The notes under the pieces were generated by a model. That model did not search any database, was not told the origin of the DNA, and saw only the letters and a program-made list of their open reading frames with translations. The position numbers and the translations under genes were made by a program. A stretch of 64,000 bases of DNA from assembly GCA_004124475.1 (NCBI GenBank), contig SCKK01000013.1, forward strand, positions 1-64,000, written 5' to 3'. Shown piece after piece: positions 54,929 through 62,881 of this stretch; the first letter of the stretch is position 1, and the number at the start of each line of letters is the position of its first letter. The DNA comes from Fidelibacterota bacterium (GTDB taxonomy: Bacteria; Fidelibacterota; Marinisomatia; Marinisomatales; SCKK01).

Positions 54929-56215
54929 CTACGGATTATTTTTTTGTCGTTTTACAACCACTAAGGTAATATCATCAAATTGAGGGGTGTCACCGGCAAA
55001 CGATTGTACAGCAGAAATTATTTTCTCAAGGAGTTCTCCAGAGGAAAGAACTAAATTATCTCTCACTAAGGCTTCAAGCTTCTGTTCCCCGAATTCCTCT
55101 TCATTGGCGTCCATCGCCTCAGTCACGCCATCTGAATAAATTACCAATACGTCCCCAGGGTGAAAAGGCACCACTTCTTCTTCAAAATCCACATTTTCCA
55201 TAAATCCGAGAACAATGCCACCTGTCCCCAATCGTCGAGGTTCTGCTTCTCCTGAAAAGAGAAATGGGTGATCGTGGCCTGCGCTGGTGTAACACAACTC
55301 GTTTTTCCGTGTATCGAGAATCCCGTAGAACAGGGTGGCAAATTTTTGTACATCGGTACTTTGAAAGAGCAGTTTATTCGAACGCTGCAGACAATCCTTG
55401 CACGAGGATGTAGAAAGGGTCTGTCCCCGAAGGGTCGCCTGGAGGTTCGCCATTAGCAACGCCGCCGGCATTCCCTTTCCCGAGACATCCCCCAGGCAGA
55501 TCGCCAGCTTGTGGCCATTTACAGAAATAAAATCATAATAATCTCCTCCGACTTCTTTGGCGGGAATGCTCTTTCCAACGATGTCATACCCAGCAATGCG
55601 AGGAGCTTCCTTGGGCAGCAAGTTCATCTGAATCTCGTAGGCTACTTTGAGCTCCTCTTCCATATGGAACAGCATTTGTTCCTCTTCATAGAGGCGGGCG
55701 TTTTCGATGATCTGTGCTGATTGAGCGGCAATAATAGACAGAAGGCGTTGATCTTCAGATGTGAAACCTTGTTCGGTTTGCTTGTTGAAGACATTCAACA
55801 GTCCCATCATTCGCCCTTTCAATCGCAGTGGAACGCTGAGAAGCGACTGAACAGGGAAATCTTCTCCGGGATCCAGCCTGAAGCGTTGGTCGTTTTGAAA
55901 ATCGTTGATGAGTAGCGGCTTTTGATTTTTTAGCATCCATCCGGAGAGTTGGAGGCCAAAATGATAGGGGACAACATCAATTTTTGAGTCCATCTCCCGG
56001 ACCATGGTTCGAAAAGGACTGTCCGGTTTTTCCTGATCGAGAAGCAGAACCGCCCCCTGTTCCACCTTCAAATGTTTGATGCATTTCTGGATAATAAGCT
56101 CCACGACATCATTCAGTTCCCGGGCAGAACTCACAGCAACGGCTATATCGTTCAACACCGAAAGTTCCTGAACTGCAGCCTGTAATCGTTGTACTTCAGA
56201 ATGATTTGTGTTCAT
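54929..56215 (-). CDS. GAF domain SpoIIE-family PP2C phosphatase
   Basis: 428 residues. A short coiled coil (1-25), GAF domain (~15-165; VRELNDVVELIIQKCIKHL at the helix, PFRTMVREMD, LINDFQNDQRF) and a C-terminal SpoIIE/RsbU-like phosphatase (~190-425; VGGDYYDFISVNG, CLGDVSGKGMPAALLMA, VLVIYSDGVTEAMD, QFDDITLVVV). By family it dephosphorylates a STAS-domain antagonist, the product of the gene just upstream, in a partner-switching cascade triggered by a GAF ligand. Confidence 0.95.
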   Translation of the reverse strand: MNTNHSEVQRLQAAVQELSVLNDIAVAVSSARELNDVVELIIQKCIKHLKVEQGAVLLLDQEKPDSPFRTMVREMDSKIDVVPYHFGLQLSGWMLKNQKPLLINDFQNDQRFRLDPGEDFPVQSLLSVPLRLKGRMMGLLNVFNKQTEQGFTSEDQRLLSIIAAQSAQIIENARLYEEEQMLFHMEEELKVAYEIQMNLLPKEAPRIAGYDIVGKSIPAKEVGGDYYDFISVNGHKLAICLGDVSGKGMPAALLMANLQATLRGQTLSTSSCKDCLQRSNKLLFQSTDVQKFATLFYGILDTRKNELCYTSAGHDHPFLFSGEAEPRRLGTGGIVLGFMENVDFEEEVVPFHPGDVLVIYSDGVTEAMDANEEEFGEQKLEALVRDNLVLSSGELLEKIISAVQSFAGDTPQFDDITLVVVKRQKNNP

Positions 56216-56253
56216 CAGACAAATACTCTGTTAGAAAGGATTATTTTGTCTTT

Positions 56254-56598
56254 CTAATCAGTACTATAGCTGGCAATGGCCTCCTCGATCGTATCAAAGC
56301 TGTCGAACACTTTTGTTAATTGTGTCGCCATAAAAACACTGTAGATCTTACGAGTGGGACGGGCAATCCTTAAATCACCCTCTGCATTCCGTAAAGATGT
56401 ATACGAGGCAAGTAAAGATCCCAACCCAGTACTGCTAAACCATTTTACTTTCCCCATATCCACCACAATTTTCGTCTGACCCTTTGCAATCAGTCCTTTG
56501 ACATACGGGTGTAAATTGATGCTTTCGGGACCATTCATCATCCTCCCTGACAGGATCAATACGGTGACATCCCCATTAACTTTTTCTTTGATTCTCAT
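56254..56598 (-). CDS. STAS-domain anti-sigma-factor antagonist
   Basis: A 114-residue SpoIIAA/RsbV-type protein. It opens with GDVTVLILSGRMM and has the phosphorylation loop KIVVDMGKVKWFSSTGLGSLLASYTSLR, in which a Ser of SSTG is the expected phosphosite. It should bind or release the HATPase protein encoded by the overlapping upstream gene. ATG 56598 overlaps the stop of that gene by 4 nt. Confidence 0.93.
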   Translation of the reverse strand: MRIKEKVNGDVTVLILSGRMMNGPESINLHPYVKGLIAKGQTKIVVDMGKVKWFSSTGLGSLLASYTSLRNAEGDLRIARPTRKIYSVFMATQLTKVFDSFDTIEEAIASYSTD

Positions 56599-57050
56599 TT
56601 GTTACTTCTCTCCTTTTTCCCTTTTGATTTAATATACTTTATTAAAGTAATTTTATTGGTGCTATTTGCCTTTCGCTCATAATACACGTCATCCACAAGT
56701 GTCTTAATAAGCGGAATTCCCAAACCTCCGTCTTTATATGTTGAGAAATCCTGGTGAATATCAAACGGTTCTATATTATCAAAATCAATGGCATCTCCCT
56801 TACTAATCACGATAGCTTTTATCGCTGTTTCGTTAATGTGTAATTCAAGATTAAAATACGATTCTTTTTCAGGATGAATTCCATACCGTATCGCATTTTG
56901 GCAAGTCTCTCTAATTGCCATTTCCATACGATTTGCGTCCATCTCATCCAATCCATGTTTCCTGCATACAGAATGAATCGAATCTCTTGTTTGATCTGAG
57001 TACATTCGATTCCCGGATATTGAAAATTTACAACTTGAATTAGACGTCAT
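56595..57050 (-). CDS. HATPase anti-sigma factor-like serine kinase (RsbW/SpoIIAB family)
   Basis: A 151-residue GHKL ATPase. The N-box reads MEMAIRETCQNAIRYGIHP and the G1-type box is DGGLGIPLIKTLVDDVYY. It should phosphorylate the STAS protein and, in the bound state, sequester a sigma factor. The natural target may be the ECF-type sigma factor encoded divergently at 57439, though classical partners are sigma-B-like factors. It is the first gene of the - strand island. Confidence 0.9.
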   Translation of the reverse strand: MTSNSSCKFSISGNRMYSDQTRDSIHSVCRKHGLDEMDANRMEMAIRETCQNAIRYGIHPEKESYFNLELHINETAIKAIVISKGDAIDFDNIEPFDIHQDFSTYKDGGLGIPLIKTLVDDVYYERKANSTNKITLIKYIKSKGKKERSNK

Positions 57051-57438
57051 GTAATAATAATGTTTGAATCTATTTTTCTAAATATTCACTATACTAAATT
57101 GCGACCCTAATTTACGTAAGCAGAAAATACAAATTGCAAAGCTATGGTAAAAGGTAATGATATTTAATTAATTCACAAATCATTTGCTCAATCCACAAAT
57201 TTGAGAACCATATTTCTGTTAGTAACTATTTAGCATATTTCCGGAAAAAGGCTAAGTCCCTCAATCCCGAATCGTCGGGATAGCCCAACGCTCTTTTCCT
57301 TTGCCTTCGCCTTGGCCTGAATAGTTACTTCTGTTATATTATAACTAATTCTCGTAGTTTTTAACGAACAGTAACATACAATTATTTGACAACCTTTTAG
57401 AATTCCATATGTCATAAACTATGTGGATCAACTACTGA
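57051..57438. other. Divergent promoter region between anti-sigma and sigma genes
   Basis: A 388-bp AT-rich interval without a gene. 57264-57281 is the palindrome ATCCCGAATCGTCGGGAT. TTGACA at about 57386 is a perfect -35 box upstream of the sigma gene, but the -10 is not clear. No riboswitch-like element was found. Confidence 0.45.
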
Positions 57439-57993
57439 ATGGATCAAGAAACTGTCAAAATCATAAGAAGCGCCCAATCCGGAGATACGGAAGCATTTCA
57501 TCATCTTGTTGCGTTATATGACAGACAGGTTATGGGTTTGGCATTGAAATTAGTCAACGATATTTTTGAAGCTGAAGACATTTACCAGGAAGTTTTCATG
57601 AAAGTATTTAAAAACATAAAAAAATTTAGATTTGAAAGTGACTTCAGTACATGGCTATATCGCATTACCGCAAATACAGCATTTAATTTTCAAAAAGGTA
57701 TGAAAAAACACTCTGGAAATTACTCCTATGAAAATGAGGATGTCGATCAATGGCTACCTTCCTATAACTCGGTTAATTCGAATCAACAAAGAGAGATGCA
57801 AACAAGTATCATGAACGCCATGAACACATTACCACAAAAACAGCGTACCGTGTTTATCATGAAGCACTTGGAACAGTTAAAAATCATCGATATTGCCGGA
57901 ATATTAAACTGTACAGAAGGCACAGTAAAAAAGTATCTTTTCCGTGCGATAGAGAAACTGAGAGTTGAATTAAAAGAATATCGATATGCCTAA
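57439..57993 (+). CDS. ECF-type RNA polymerase sigma factor
   Basis: 184 residues with sigma region 2 (LALKLVNDIFEAEDIYQEVF then FSTWLYRITANTAFNFQ) and region 4 (LPQKQRTVFIMKHLEQL, helix-turn-helix IADIAG-type: IIDIAGILNCTEGTVKKYLF). There is no N- or C-terminal extension, so a standard ECF factor. Its stop overlaps the next gene by 8 nt. It is most likely to drive the five-gene operon it heads. Confidence 0.95.
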   Translation: MDQETVKIIRSAQSGDTEAFHHLVALYDRQVMGLALKLVNDIFEAEDIYQEVFMKVFKNIKKFRFESDFSTWLYRITANTAFNFQKGMKKHSGNYSYENEDVDQWLPSYNSVNSNQQREMQTSIMNAMNTLPQKQRTVFIMKHLEQLKIIDIAGILNCTEGTVKKYLFRAIEKLRVELKEYRYA

Positions 57994-58969
57994 CCCGTTA
58001 AATAATAGACTGAAAAAACAGGCCGTTCTTTATATCCTAAAACTCTTAGACAGCAAAAAAAGTTTAGAGTTCGAAAAAAAGATGAACCAAGACCAAACTC
58101 TCAACCAATATGTTGGTGAATTGCAAGTTACTATGGAATTAACAAGTCAATTTCCGGTAAGACAGCCCTCTGAAAATTTCCTGAAAACACAGCGTAATCT
58201 ACTGAGGGGTAGAATTGACATACTCGTGAAAGAGCCTGTGATCAAAAGAATCATTCGAAGCTTTGAACAAATTTTTATCCAAATCACACCGCTCTTCAGA
58301 CTGCCTGCTATGGCCATTGTCAGTTCCCTAATAATCGGAATTCTTGCCGGCAGGTTTCTATTCACAACAGTAAAAGTAGTTCCCACACCCATTCGAATAA
58401 CTAACACAACAGAAGAGAGAATTCATGACTTTTTAAGACGGGGGCAGTTAGCCGCAGGTCAAATTGAATATGTTAAAAATGGGCCAGACAAGGTTGTATT
58501 TCACTTGAAAACGGAAGATGAATATGTGTATAGTGGGGGACTCGATGATGCACTGGTAAAAGAACTTCTCACTTATCATCTGTTGAACGAAACCAATCCG
58601 GGGAAACGTTTAAAATCGATCAAATTTATGATGGAATCAGGAGCGGACGAAAGTTTGATGATGGTGTACGTTGCTGTACTTCTTACAGATGAGAATCCCG
58701 GTGTGAGATTAAGGGCTATGGAGCAACTTATACAATATCCTCCCAACAAAATCATCCGAGACGCAAGTATGAAAGTCCTTCTTGAAGAGGAAAATACTGC
58801 TATCAGGATGGGCGCTTTAAGAATCTTAGCCAACAACCCTGACGAACGCCTGGTACCTGTCCTCCAAGTCGTATCTCGTCTGGATGACAATGAATTTATC
58901 CGAGAACAGGCATTTATTATTTTAAGTCGATTGGATGAGGTGTCACGATCTGATATATCAGGAGAATAA
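57986..58969 (+). CDS. Membrane protein with HEAT-like repeats, probable anti-sigma factor
   Basis: 327 residues. The N-terminal ~75 residues form a small helical domain with KKSLEFEKKMNQDQTLNQYV, the zinc-free anti-sigma arrangement; the canonical HxxxCxxC is absent. One TM helix at ~107-128. The periplasmic part ends in HEAT-like repeats (SIKFMMESGADESLMMVYV, NPGVRLRAMEQLIQYPPN, NTAIRMGALRILANNPDERL). The gene overlaps the sigma gene, the usual position for its anti-sigma partner. Assignment rests on position and layout. HEAT repeats on the far side of the membrane could sense a protein ligand. Confidence 0.78.
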   Translation: MPNPLNNRLKKQAVLYILKLLDSKKSLEFEKKMNQDQTLNQYVGELQVTMELTSQFPVRQPSENFLKTQRNLLRGRIDILVKEPVIKRIIRSFEQIFIQITPLFRLPAMAIVSSLIIGILAGRFLFTTVKVVPTPIRITNTTEERIHDFLRRGQLAAGQIEYVKNGPDKVVFHLKTEDEYVYSGGLDDALVKELLTYHLLNETNPGKRLKSIKFMMESGADESLMMVYVAVLLTDENPGVRLRAMEQLIQYPPNKIIRDASMKVLLEEENTAIRMGALRILANNPDERLVPVLQVVSRLDDNEFIREQAFIILSRLDEVSRSDISGE

Positions 58970-58970
58970 C

Positions 58971-60224
58971 ATGAAGAAAAATTATTTGATCATAATGCTC
59001 ATTTTATTCTTGAATTATTCATATTTATTCAGCCAAGACCTGACACAGGAATCATACAATCGATATGTGGGAACATCAAAATATATATTTGAGGTAGATG
59101 GCCAGGGTCAACTTGAAATGGATAATATCAGAGGAGATGTATCAATAGAAGGTTCTCCGGAGAATACCATTAAAATTGTTGAAAAGATCACCATCAAAAC
59201 CAGTTCAAAAGGGAGCGCTCAGGAAATTTTCGAGCGAATAAAAGCAGAGATAACATCAACGAAAGATGAAGATGGAAAGACTTCGGTAAACATATCCGGA
59301 GGTCATTGGGAATGGAGAAGGCATGTTTCAACTGAATACGTGATTACACTTCCTCGAGTGTCGTCTATTTTTGTGAATGTTCGTGGTGGAGACATTAAAA
59401 CAATAAATATTCAGGGAGAAATAGAATTATCTACATCGGGCGGCGATCTGTCACTTTCTGACTTGGCAGGTAAAATCTCTGCCTCCACATCCGGTGGTGA
59501 TATCGATACCGAAGATATAAGCGGATTAATTTTTCTTAATACATCAGGGGGTGATATTGAGGTCATAAACCTGGAAGGAAGGTTAAATGCAAAAACGTCT
59601 GGAGGTGATATCGATATCGAGATAGTTAAAGGTGATGTTTCCGTCAATACTTCAGGGGGAGATATTACCCTTGAGGATATTGTTGGTAAAGAAATTACGG
59701 CGCGAACAAGTGGAGGTGATATAAGAGTCAAAGATATTATAGGAGAAACAGACGTAACCACATCCGGAGGTAACATCATCCTTGAATACATCACGGGAGA
59801 AGTAGAGGCATCCACTTCAGGGGGAGATATTGAGATGGAATATATAGTAGGATCAATTCGAGTTTGGACTAACGGAGGAAGTATTGAAGGAAAAGATCTG
59901 GCTGGAGCCGTAGATGCCAGAACGTCAGCAGGAGATATTTATATTGAAAAAACCTGGGATCGCGAACTGCAAGATCACAACATCGATCTTAAAACTTCAG
60001 CAGGGGATATTGAATTGACCCTACCGGCGGATTTTCCGGGGGATTTTTCACTGAAAGCATCCAACCCACCCGGAAAAGCTTCTTACGCAATCACATCCGA
60101 CTTCCCACTTATAATCACTGCTTCTATGAATACTGCCAGGGCAAAAGGGAAAACCGGAAGCGGTGAATACAGAATTAATATCCAATCTAATATTGGTACT
60201 ATCACCATTAAACAGGAGGATTAA
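58971..60224 (+). CDS. DUF4097 family beta-repeat envelope protein
   Basis: About 417 residues. ATG 58971 has GGAGAA before it; the frame is open to 58935. A signal peptide ends at LFSQD. From ~130 to ~370 run about 11 repeats of 21-22 residues with the consensus TSGGDI..E.I.G.I.A, the toast-rack-type beta-helix of DUF4097. These proteins lie next to sigma or LiaF-type regulators in many phyla; their job is not settled. The gene is followed with no gap by the outer-membrane protein gene. AGGAGG for that gene lies in the last codons. Confidence 0.88.
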   Translation: MKKNYLIIMLILFLNYSYLFSQDLTQESYNRYVGTSKYIFEVDGQGQLEMDNIRGDVSIEGSPENTIKIVEKITIKTSSKGSAQEIFERIKAEITSTKDEDGKTSVNISGGHWEWRRHVSTEYVITLPRVSSIFVNVRGGDIKTINIQGEIELSTSGGDLSLSDLAGKISASTSGGDIDTEDISGLIFLNTSGGDIEVINLEGRLNAKTSGGDIDIEIVKGDVSVNTSGGDITLEDIVGKEITARTSGGDIRVKDIIGETDVTTSGGNIILEYITGEVEASTSGGDIEMEYIVGSIRVWTNGGSIEGKDLAGAVDARTSAGDIYIEKTWDRELQDHNIDLKTSAGDIELTLPADFPGDFSLKASNPPGKASYAITSDFPLIITASMNTARAKGKTGSGEYRINIQSNIGTITIKQED

Positions 60225-61745
60225 ATGATAAAATATTTTTCCCCCTCGATTTACTTATTCGTTTTTCCTGGATTTTTACTGGGACAGGTCCAAGATACTA
60301 CCTATTCAGATTCCGTTGCTTTGGACTCTCATGATGAGTCTGATTTATACGAGGGCACAGGTAATGAACTGAAATTCTTTGGAGACTACTATATAGGTCT
60401 CAACGAGATTGTGAAAGATGATATACAGTTATTCGGTGGCAATCTTTTTGTGGCTGGGACCGTGCTGGGAAAGATTACAGTACTTGGCGGGGATGTTACA
60501 TTAGAATCGACTGCTGTGGTAAATGGCAGAATTGTCGCAATCGGTGGTTCCATCATCACACATGAAGGTGCAGAAATAAATGGAACGGTTGTGGAAGCAA
60601 ATATTCGAGAAGGGATCAGTTTCTCTGACAAGGGAGGAAAGATATCCACTCCGGATACATTTGATTTCCAAATGGAAGAACTCAAACGCCGTCCTGACCG
60701 AACTTGGATCCATCCTGATAATGACTGGTTCTCCTACAATAGAAATGAAGGGTTTGTATTCACACCCTTTAATTATCGATGGAATCGCAAGTCTAAATCA
60801 AGTTTCCAGCTTAGCCTCTCCCTGGGATATCGATTTGGACAGAACGAATTAACAGGTCGTCTTACGTTAGAAAAATATTTTTTCCGTAGACATAATTTCG
60901 TTCTGTTCACTTCCGGATTTCATGAAAGTGAATCAGATGACACCTATCGACTGCCAAACCTCGAAAACTCGCTGGCTGCTCTATTTGCCCGCCAGGATTT
61001 CTACGACAGATGGGATGAAGAGGGTTTTGAATTGGGATTTGGAATTAATTTTAGTACGATCCGTTTCAGAGTGGCGTATCACACTGTTTATCTTGATTCC
61101 ATATCAATAACCAACCGACAGGCAACCTGGTTTCATGCCGATAGGGCATTCAGACCCAATCTCCCGATCATTCCGGGAAATGTAGAATCATATCTCGCTA
61201 CACTGTCTGTGAAAACGAGAGGTTTTCAACCACTTGGGAATGGAATCGGTGCAATTATTGACGGAGAGCAAGTAATTACAGCAGAGAAATACGATAATTT
61301 TACACGTATCTTTACTACTGTCATGGCAAACTGGGAAATCTCCGAAGGGATAGTGCTCCGCAATAGAATCCTTTTTGGAACAACTGGGGGGATACTCCCT
61401 GATTTCCGGAAATTCACTGTGGGAGGATTAGGATCGGTCAGTGCTCACTCATACAAACCATCAAATCAAACAGGTAACCAGATGGTGCAAGCCAATGTAG
61501 AATTGGTATTTCTTCCAGAATTTTTAGACAAAGATTGGGTGATCTTTCTTTTTGCAGATGGCGGAAATGCTTGGGATTCCGCTGATTACAATCTTACAGA
61601 TTTTAACTCCATTAGTAAAAACGGTATAAGCAGCATTGGCATTGGTTTTGGAGATGATGATCTTGATTGGAGAATAAATATTGCAAGACCCCTGGACGGT
61701 CGTGACACCTGGGAAACCACGTTCCGCCTAAATATGAATTTCTGA
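60225..61745 (+). CDS. Bactofilin-like domain plus outer-membrane beta-barrel protein
   Basis: 506 residues. After a signal peptide (FPGFLLGQ) there is a polymer-forming/bactofilin-like beta-helix (~50-125; DDIQLFGGNLFVAGTVLG, KITVLGGDVTLESTAVVNGR) and then an Omp85/surface-antigen type barrel (~175-506; LSLSLGYRFGQNELTGRL, GGLGSVSAHSYK like the conserved RG-loop region, FLFADGGNAWD, terminal FRLNMNF). It should be an outer-membrane protein with a periplasmic helical part. The next gene's ATG overlaps its stop by 1 nt. Confidence 0.82.
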   Translation: MIKYFSPSIYLFVFPGFLLGQVQDTTYSDSVALDSHDESDLYEGTGNELKFFGDYYIGLNEIVKDDIQLFGGNLFVAGTVLGKITVLGGDVTLESTAVVNGRIVAIGGSIITHEGAEINGTVVEANIREGISFSDKGGKISTPDTFDFQMEELKRRPDRTWIHPDNDWFSYNRNEGFVFTPFNYRWNRKSKSSFQLSLSLGYRFGQNELTGRLTLEKYFFRRHNFVLFTSGFHESESDDTYRLPNLENSLAALFARQDFYDRWDEEGFELGFGINFSTIRFRVAYHTVYLDSISITNRQATWFHADRAFRPNLPIIPGNVESYLATLSVKTRGFQPLGNGIGAIIDGEQVITAEKYDNFTRIFTTVMANWEISEGIVLRNRILFGTTGGILPDFRKFTVGGLGSVSAHSYKPSNQTGNQMVQANVELVFLPEFLDKDWVIFLFADGGNAWDSADYNLTDFNSISKNGISSIGIGFGDDDLDWRINIARPLDGRDTWETTFRLNMNF

Positions 61746-62626
61746 TGCAAATATATAGAAAATTAATACCAGTACTATTCCTCACCTGTTTATCAATAGC
61801 TCAAGATAACCAAAACACGGTTATTGAAACCTATCATTTTGATACGGCTGATGTTAAACGTATTGATATTAAAATCGATTATAGCATGGGGGAACTCACT
61901 ATTACTGACAACGGAAAATTAAATTTTATCGATGGCACTATTGAATACTTCCCAGAATGGATTTCACCGGATATCCGTTACTATACCATAGGTTCCAAAG
62001 GGAAGCTAAAGGTAGAGATTGACGCTATTGATCACAGTTTTACATTCCGCAGTAAAGATATTTGGAAAGGATTACGTGATAAAAACGGGTTGAGTTATGT
62101 TTCCTTTCGTTTACCTCGTGATATACCAACGGACATGAAAATTGACTTTGGCTTAGGCGAATCAGAAATAGATTTAACAACCCTGTCTATCTCAGATTTT
62201 ATTCTTGAATGTGGTTTGGGTGAGACTAGACTCATAATGAACTCTGCGAATTCAGAGCGGTGCAAAAAGGTAATCATCAGTGCAGGCTTGGGCGAATTTA
62301 CAGGAATAGAACTAGGGAACCTAAGGGGTAAAATATATGAATTCAATATGGGTTTAGGAGCAAGTACCATAGATCTTACTGGTGATGTTATCGAAGATAT
62401 GAAAGGGACAATTGAAGTGGGACTCGGCTCTCTGGTTCTGATTTTACCTAAAAATGCAAATATTCGCCTGGAAATCGAGCGTTCTTTTCTCTCATCCATA
62501 ATCGTAAGAGACCTGGTTCAAAAAGATGAGGTATGGTTAAGCCCAAGCTGGGATAAAAACTTACCCACTGTGGAATTTGAAATCAGTGTCGGATTGGGTG
62601 CTGTAAATATTCATTTGGGTGACTGA
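61745..62626 (+). CDS. LiaF/toast-rack-like envelope protein (DUF2154-type)
   Basis: 293 residues with a short signal peptide (CLSIAQ). The domain repeats glycine-rich strands: IDYSMGELTI, IDFGLGESEIDL, ECGLGETRLIM, ISAGLGEFTGIE, NMGLGASTIDLTG, EVGLGSLVLI, ISVGLGAVNIHLG. This is the toast-rack (DUF2154) fold found in LiaF and related envelope sensors. No TM helix beyond the signal. It is the last gene of the sigma operon and overlaps the barrel gene by 1 nt, so cotranslation is likely. Confidence 0.82.
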   Translation: MQIYRKLIPVLFLTCLSIAQDNQNTVIETYHFDTADVKRIDIKIDYSMGELTITDNGKLNFIDGTIEYFPEWISPDIRYYTIGSKGKLKVEIDAIDHSFTFRSKDIWKGLRDKNGLSYVSFRLPRDIPTDMKIDFGLGESEIDLTTLSISDFILECGLGETRLIMNSANSERCKKVIISAGLGEFTGIELGNLRGKIYEFNMGLGASTIDLTGDVIEDMKGTIEVGLGSLVLILPKNANIRLEIERSFLSSIIVRDLVQKDEVWLSPSWDKNLPTVEFEISVGLGAVNIHLGD

Positions 62627-62881
62627 TAAAATCGGCGCTGTTCTAAATACCGTATGGTCCGCCAGCGTTCGACTGAGCTCACGCCGAAGTCTGGCGGATT
62701 GAGAAAGTGGTTAAAAGGTTAGTTGTAACTGGTGAGCGGTGAGTAGTAACTGGTGAGTGGTGGAGTGGTAGTACCTGTAACCAATAACCAGCTACCAATC
62801 ACCAATATCAAACCGCAGATCAAAAATGCTATCAAGAAAGAGGGGATAATTCATACGTTTCATAGAACAAAGCCATAAAAT
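62627..62881. other. Spacer with GTGAGT/ACCAAT repeats and an inverted repeat
   Basis: 62658-62698 is a hairpin (TCCGCCAG...CTGGCGGA) with a TTCGACTGAGCTCACGCCGAAG interior. 62723-62806 is a short-period tract of TAACTGGTGAGTGG-like units on one side and ACCAATAACCAGCTACC-like units on the other, partly inverse complements. No gene. Confidence 0.6.

Follow-up and report, generated by a model that had tools for sequence, protein, structure and literature searches.

An operon joining an extracytoplasmic function sigma factor to a HEAT-repeat candidate anti-sigma factor and exported toast-rack proteins in Candidatus Neomarinimicrobiota

What could a single operon achieve with a sigma factor, a membrane protein ending in HEAT-like repeats, two toast-rack-type proteins and an outer-membrane barrel? 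The question is raised by positions 57439-62626 (+ strand) of a 64,000-nucleotide stretch of contig SCKK01000013.1, hereafter the window. The analysed genome (3.15 Mb, 77 contigs) belongs to Candidatus Neomarinimicrobiota, a mostly uncultured phylum of marine bacteria previously called Marinimicrobia or SAR406. We propose that the operon very probably encodes an envelope-stress system composed of an extracytoplasmic function (ECF) sigma factor and a class I-type anti-sigma factor; its output may be Psp/Lia-like. The proposal starts from the operon itself, its shared descent and conservation, the domain homologies of its products, a promoter class tied to it and envelope-related targets in relatives. 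A first-pass annotation of the window had described five genes joined by overlaps or tiny gaps, and the five open reading frames (ORFs) indeed lie end to end, with junctions of -8, +1, 0 and -1 nt (Table 1); the sigma gene thus overlaps the HEAT gene by 8 nt, the barrel gene abuts the DUF4097 gene without a gap, and the barrel gene shares 1 nt (TGATG) with the gene at 61745. For the DUF4097 gene, the ATG at 58971 is the most probable start, and not position 58935 as listed among the ORFs: this is where a Shine-Dalgarno-like AGGAGA and the beginning of a signal sequence, MKKNYLIIM, are found, and homologs agree; the 58935 start chosen by the ORF caller lies upstream of the AGGAGA site. The operon is flanked by a divergent gene (57050) and a convergent gene (62882).

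Table 1. Features of the operon and its promoter in the window
Feature	Position	Strand	Evidence
ECF-type promoter TGACAAC-N17-GTCATA (-35 AAC, -10 GTC)	57387..57416	+	upstream alignment of orthologous operons; exact match in window
ECF sigma factor	57439..57993	+	Pfam PF04542 1.2e-15, PF08281 2e-16; NCBIfam superfamily TIGR02937 3.7e-31
Candidate HEAT anti-sigma factor, 327 aa: four-helix N-domain, one transmembrane helix, HEAT-like repeats predicted to be periplasmic	57986..58969	+	Pfam, alignments, AlphaFold2, Foldseek
N-terminal anti-sigma domain, residues 1-82	57986..58231	+	AlphaFold2 model; alignment with zinc-bearing orthologs; zf-HC2, RskA_N in homologs
Predicted transmembrane helix, residues 107-125	58304..58360	+	hydrophobic helix in model and sequence
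Eight helices after short beta segment, residues 189-326: HEAT-like, predicted periplasmic	58550..58963	+	HEAT_2; Foldseek
DUF4097 toast-rack protein, probably exported; 11 TSGGDI-type units, N-terminal signal sequence	58971..60224	+	PF13349 8.8e-21; repeats; alignment
Bactofilin-like beta-helix (residues 47-135) and Omp85-type outer-membrane barrel (169-506), probably exported	60225..61745	+	Pfam, AlphaFold2, Foldseek
Toast-rack protein with GLGE-type strands (Toast_rack_N / LiaF-like_C), probably exported	61745..62626	+	domain matches; family profile vs PDB

Conservation of the operon across the phylum

Conserved linkage, on which the first-pass annotation had staked its proposal, holds within the phylum. 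The order sigma factor, HEAT protein and, optionally, DUF4097 toast-rack protein, barrel protein and GLGE-type protein recurs in about 50 loci, belonging to many families and to other classes, in a tally that counts some contigs twice as they are present in two collections. A chance neighbourhood is ruled out, since the linkage is far above chance across the phylum loci. The HEAT protein was found in 30 of 61 relatives, and a profile search recovered it in 139 of 245 phylum genomes at E 1e-3, the weakest matches being paralogs that consist of the N-domain only. A collection was scanned with the barrel alignment, the HEAT alignment having no sufficiently conserved stretch; among named records the closest barrel protein (95% identical) is that of Candidatus Neomarinimicrobiota isolate B71T3L11, and the name of this phylum also stands on almost all of the other loci recovered.

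Most loci of the window's order retain the 8-nt overlap between sigma and HEAT genes, and the usual place of the operon there is 3' of rng-rplU-rpmA-mdh. The window's genus has it relocated as a whole, with a SpoIIE/STAS/HATPase cluster on one side and a thioredoxin-like gene on the other. The gene content downstream of the HEAT gene is variable: family f13 (L054-L057) keeps only the sigma, HEAT and GLGE-type genes, having lost the DUF4097 and barrel genes, f26-f29 have no barrel gene, f25 is reduced to sigma, HEAT and DUF4097 genes, and f23 has no GLGE-type gene nearby. All intact loci with enough flank hold the sigma factor, the HEAT protein and at least one toast-rack protein, which is of the DUF4097 or the GLGE type depending on the lineage. 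A damaged copy was also seen in genome G041 (L299:1501-3029), where an ORF behind the operon promoter fuses the sigma N-terminus in frame to the DUF4097 C-terminus; the HEAT gene, the rest of the sigma gene and most of the DUF4097 gene are missing, and an intact barrel gene comes next.

Sigma factor and candidate anti-sigma factor

The first product matches Sigma70 regions 2 and 4 in Pfam and has no region 3, which makes it an ECF sigma factor; no named NCBIfam equivalog is matched above cut-off. Its promoter ends 22 nt 5' of the start codon. When orthologous operons are aligned, TGACAAC (or a one-base variant), a spacer of 17 or 18 nt and GTC are found upstream of the sigma gene in 45 loci, a majority of operon copies that includes the window's. 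This promoter has the -35 AAC and GTC-type -10 elements of an autoregulated ECF promoter, is kept upstream and is enriched only where the operon is present; judged by these sequence patterns, the sigma factor would transcribe its own operon.

In the AlphaFold2 model, the second product runs from four N-terminal helices (residues 7-17, 23-35, 37-54 and 63-82; pLDDT mostly 75-93), the four-helix layout of a class I anti-sigma domain, through a linker helix, the predicted transmembrane helix and a short beta segment to eight further helices. HEAT_2 is matched above cut-off in this protein and is also found in all 24 aligned homologs, and the best Foldseek neighbours of the region are artificial alphaRep HEAT-like solenoids, at modest significance (E about 0.01). 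Both peculiarities that had been ascribed to this anti-sigma candidate at the outset, the lack of a zinc motif and the presence of periplasmic HEAT-like repeats, are thereby upheld, the extracytoplasmic placement being a prediction: HxxxCxxC is missing, its ligand positions corresponding to K32, D36 and L39 in the alignment with zinc-bearing orthologs. The motif is likewise absent from the operon's anti-sigma protein throughout the window's order.

The window protein itself matches neither zf-HC2 nor RskA_N in Pfam, and its kinship is seen through its orthologs. Those in other classes carry HxxxCxxC in the N-domain, two of them (L097 and L102) matching zf-HC2 above the curated cut-off, and RskA_N is matched in 2 of 24 order members. 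The N-domain also recurs as a free-standing protein of 146-185 aa beside a second ECF sigma factor in 10 loci, and the paralog in the window's own genome (L124, beside that second sigma factor) retains the zinc motif and matches zf-HC2. Because of these ortholog matches and of the recurrence beside the second sigma factor, we regard the 57986 protein as an anti-sigma homolog of class I type, which would bind the sigma factor and span the membrane. Lack of zinc was considered as an argument against such a role and was rejected, given the ortholog evidence and the observation that about 44% of class I anti-sigma domains are without the motif, which is not needed for membership (PMC7406223). The most conserved N-terminal stretch is helix 4, with L66 and L73 invariant and R70 and R74 near-invariant; in class I anti-sigma factors it is helix 4 that binds sigma region 2 (PMC7406223). 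In families f20 and f19 (L093-L096, L108, L109) the part that follows the first helix and precedes helix 4 is missing, and helix 4 itself (WLxxQRxxLxGxI) stays, as do the sigma partner and the promoter motif.

The second ECF sigma factor and its free-standing anti-sigma-like protein form a conserved gene neighbourhood of their own (L113-L122, L124). Among these anti-sigma-like proteins the zinc motif is present in the own-genome copy and lost from most order copies, apparently separately from the loss in the operon protein.

Promoter motif and its targets

A genome-wide search for the promoter, proposed along with the first-pass annotation, was performed with the pattern TGACAAC-N17/18-GTCNWA, using the reversed pattern as control. 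It returned 132 sites against 51 for the control in the 37 genomes of the order that have the operon. The 40 genomes where the operon was not detected gave 16 sites and 57 control sites; the enrichment with the operon is significant (Fisher p 1.7e-13; 4.4e-10 after dropping about one self site per genome). Several of the 16 sites precede target-family genes in incomplete assemblies or adjoin a damaged operon. A housekeeping promoter is ruled out by the lack of enrichment in operon-less genomes. A promoter of the second ECF sigma factor is ruled out as well, as the motif is not enriched in operon-less genomes, f15 genomes with the second sigma only among them, and was looked for and found absent upstream of that sigma gene.

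Nearly all non-self sites were examined in five genomes, and 27 of these 32 are followed after 5-60 bp by a start codon on the strand of the site; only this count is a rate, since further regions were chosen for sites repeated between genomes. A pattern with a scrambled -35 gave 12 sites, all 12 of them inside ORFs. The first genes behind such motif sites, 40 in number, appear to encode membrane-bound or exported proteins. Recurrent targets within the order are Yip1 with TolC and an HlyD adaptor (f2, f8, f12, f13), DUF5916 (f2, f6, f8), PspC (f6, f8, f13), an M1 peptidase-like protein (f2, f8, f13), DUF2807 (f8, f13) and a DUF4097 protein (f12). Family f13 additionally has S46 and M3 peptidases among its targets, as well as a membrane protein of bactofilin-like type that shares homology with the barrel protein's beta-helix. 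The motif precedes PspC in f27 too, and in other classes it stands before sigma, DUF5916-like, TolC-like, PspC, M1-like and DUF4097 genes. The envelope theme of the first-pass annotation is thus reinforced by a recurring regulon of PspC, Yip1-TolC-HlyD, DUF5916 and peptidase genes in relatives.

Directly 5' of the motif-linked PspC gene in f6 and f8 there is always a predicted membrane protein of 56-59 aa (MAKY...; L256:330-692, L257, L240, L242), which matches no Pfam family.

Exported products, proposed mechanism and known systems

The last three products carry signal-like hydrophobic N-terminal stretches and are therefore probably exported. The two proteins first described as toast-rack-type both fall within the toast-rack superfamily (DUF4097/DUF2154/DUF2807), the 58971 protein through its PF13349 match and the 61745 protein through its homolog profile, which matches PDB 4qrk (E 9e-25); taken alone, the 61745 protein matches Toast_rack_N and LiaF-like_C below cut-off. 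The repeats described for them stand as well: 6 of the 11 TSGGDI-type units are exact, spaced mostly by 18 residues, and the last protein has 6 GLG[EAS] motifs. NCBIfam LiaG is matched by the DUF4097 protein below cut-off (2e-21), and its profile found no solved structure by sequence. The suggested union of a bactofilin-like domain and an outer-membrane barrel in one protein is borne out, the bactofilin part at a level below cut-off (PF04519, E 1.5e-4, 22.3 bits against 27.9; a weak match in 9 of 23 homologs). Pfam Omp85 is matched in 11 of the 23 barrel homologs, the C-terminal Phe is invariant in the alignment, and by Foldseek the predicted barrel is of the BamA/TamA type (E 2.7e-12). No POTRA domain is matched in the protein, its homologs or the model, and the beta-helix occupies that place.

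How might these parts work together? The N-terminal helices of the 57986 protein would hold the sigma factor at the inner face of the cytoplasmic membrane, while its HEAT-like domain samples the periplasm, and a periplasmic signal would lead to release of the sigma factor. Once freed, it would use the TGACAAC-N17-GTC promoter to transcribe its own operon; across most of the phylum it would also drive PspC, the Yip1-TolC-HlyD export operon and DUF5916 outer-membrane proteins, with exported peptidases and additional toast-rack and bactofilin-like proteins as further targets. The three exported operon products would then act as effectors that shield or repair the envelope, and co-expression of the anti-sigma factor with the sigma factor would close a negative feedback loop. 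Topology and direction of signalling are inferred, and the nature of the stimulus, the manner of release (by proteolysis or a conformational change) and a contact of the HEAT domain with toast-rack proteins are our guesses.

What the HEAT-like domain senses can be read in more than one way. The chances are about even that it responds to a fault of the envelope in general, be it misfolded protein, lipid stress or proton-motive-force stress, directly or via regulated proteolysis, the downstream proteins all being effectors and the system a Psp/Lia-like response run by an ECF sigma factor. Targets such as PspC, Yip1, TolC-HlyD, exported peptidases, DUF2807 and DUF4097 fit this, toast-rack and PspC proteins being established partners in the Psp response (PMC11237479), although PspC of the window's own genome is not among the motif-bearing targets. 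It is rather unlikely that the HEAT-like domain is instead a surveillance receptor, occupied while the cell is unstressed by a toast-rack or barrel protein of the operon, the sigma factor being freed when this exported beta-solenoid ligand is misassembled or drawn away to sites of damage. This is the model of the first-pass annotation, in which repeat proteins would report on outer-membrane state. The persistence of at least one exported toast-rack protein beside the sigma and HEAT genes in all intact loci with enough flank speaks for such a receptor, yet effectors in an autoregulated operon should show identical linkage, none of the downstream proteins is kept everywhere, and which toast-rack protein is kept varies by lineage. 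As they lie downstream of the sigma factor's own promoter, the toast-rack and barrel proteins may equally be effectors, and this is most likely what they are, in preference to HEAT ligands. Finally, we consider it improbable that the operon builds a surface or adhesion structure with the sigma factor and the HEAT protein as its dedicated on/off switch; repetitive exported beta proteins would suit it, and Pfam annotates DUF2807 as a putative adhesin head domain, but the relatives' targets include efflux, PspC and peptidase genes, and sigma and HEAT genes can persist where toast-rack and barrel genes have gone (as in f13).

Several points weigh against the envelope-stress system proposed here. 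Sigma binding and promoter use are read from sequence and predicted structure, and in f20 and f19, where the middle of the N-domain is lost, helix 4 would have to carry the binding. For the window's own genome, support as a target extends only to the operon and one CBM9/DUF5916-like gene (contig 27): the PspC and Yip1-like genes were checked and have no motif, and with one mismatch allowed there is no excess of sites (18 against 37 in the control). In genus g62 (f23) the strict pattern matched no site. As for the CBM9/DUF5916-like gene (L169:1547-2250; about 15778-16480 of contig 27), it has an in-frame stop after codon 160, which reflects either a pseudogene or an assembly error.

Taken separately, the parts of this envelope-stress system are already known: an ECF sigma factor with a class I-type anti-sigma factor, a toast-rack/PspC envelope response and an Omp85 barrel. 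RpoE/RseA, SigW/RsiW and SigK/RskA resemble it in having sigma regions 2 and 4, a translationally overlapping adjacent membrane protein, a four-helix N-domain with zf-HC2/RskA_N kinship and an AAC/GTC-type autoregulated promoter; here, however, the periplasmic part is a HEAT-like solenoid, and in f20 and f19 chiefly helix 4 of the N-domain is left. The Psp/Lia systems (toast-rack, LiaF/LiaG, PspC; PMC11237479) have in common with it the operon's toast-rack proteins and the PspC, DUF2807 and DUF4097 genes that stand under one promoter class in relatives, whereas control here would lie with an ECF sigma factor and a HEAT anti-sigma factor instead of PspF or LiaRS. The operon itself holds no PspA, PspF or LiaRS, no dedicated search having been made elsewhere. 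Operonically linked sigma factors have been suggested for some toast-rack contexts, and the toast-rack domain has been argued to be intracellular (PMC11237479), in contrast to the present proteins, which carry signal sequences. The Dma anti-sigma factors of Bacteroides (PMC13088901) are alike in their ECF sigma factor, anti-sigma domain with a transmembrane helix, coupling to an outer-membrane beta-barrel and control of envelope behaviour. The Dma barrel, however, is the C-terminus of the anti-sigma factor behind a disordered tether, while here it is encoded by a separate gene and the anti-sigma factor ends in HEAT-like repeats. Finally, the barrel protein is similar to BamA and TamA in its predicted barrel, Omp85 matches and C-terminal Phe, and differs in bearing a bactofilin-like beta-helix where POTRA would stand.

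In the one full-text library searched, we found no description of a HEAT anti-sigma factor, of exported toast-rack proteins, of such N-domain reduction, of this regulon or of the combination of parts, nor of any sigma-controlled envelope-stress system in Neomarinimicrobiota. The operon links an ECF sigma factor with toast-rack and PspC proteins, and its exported toast-rack examples bear on the published view of an intracellular domain. It also offers a case in which zinc is lost from a zinc anti-sigma domain, two families having given up much of the bundle as well, with the sigma partner and promoter remaining constant. Since the sigma factor, its likely inhibitor, the promoter and recurring targets can be named from sequence, the response is testable in a heterologous host. 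Perhaps, though we hold this doubtful, there is a phylum-wide response in which a HEAT-solenoid anti-sigma factor is gated by exported toast-rack ligands and commands a Psp-like regulon, with the anti-sigma domain shrunk almost to the sigma2-binding helix in some families. If this is true, toast-rack proteins would act as extracytoplasmic signalling ligands.

The surroundings of the operon hold two further features. Its divergent neighbours (54929-57050, - strand) make up a cluster of GAF-SpoIIE phosphatase, STAS and HATPase genes, as is typical of partner-switching modules, and this cluster adjoins the operon in the window's genus only. Just 3' of the operon, the intergenic stretch 62640-62760 contains inverted TCCGCCAG/CTGGCGGA arms together with two imperfect 21-nt direct repeats.

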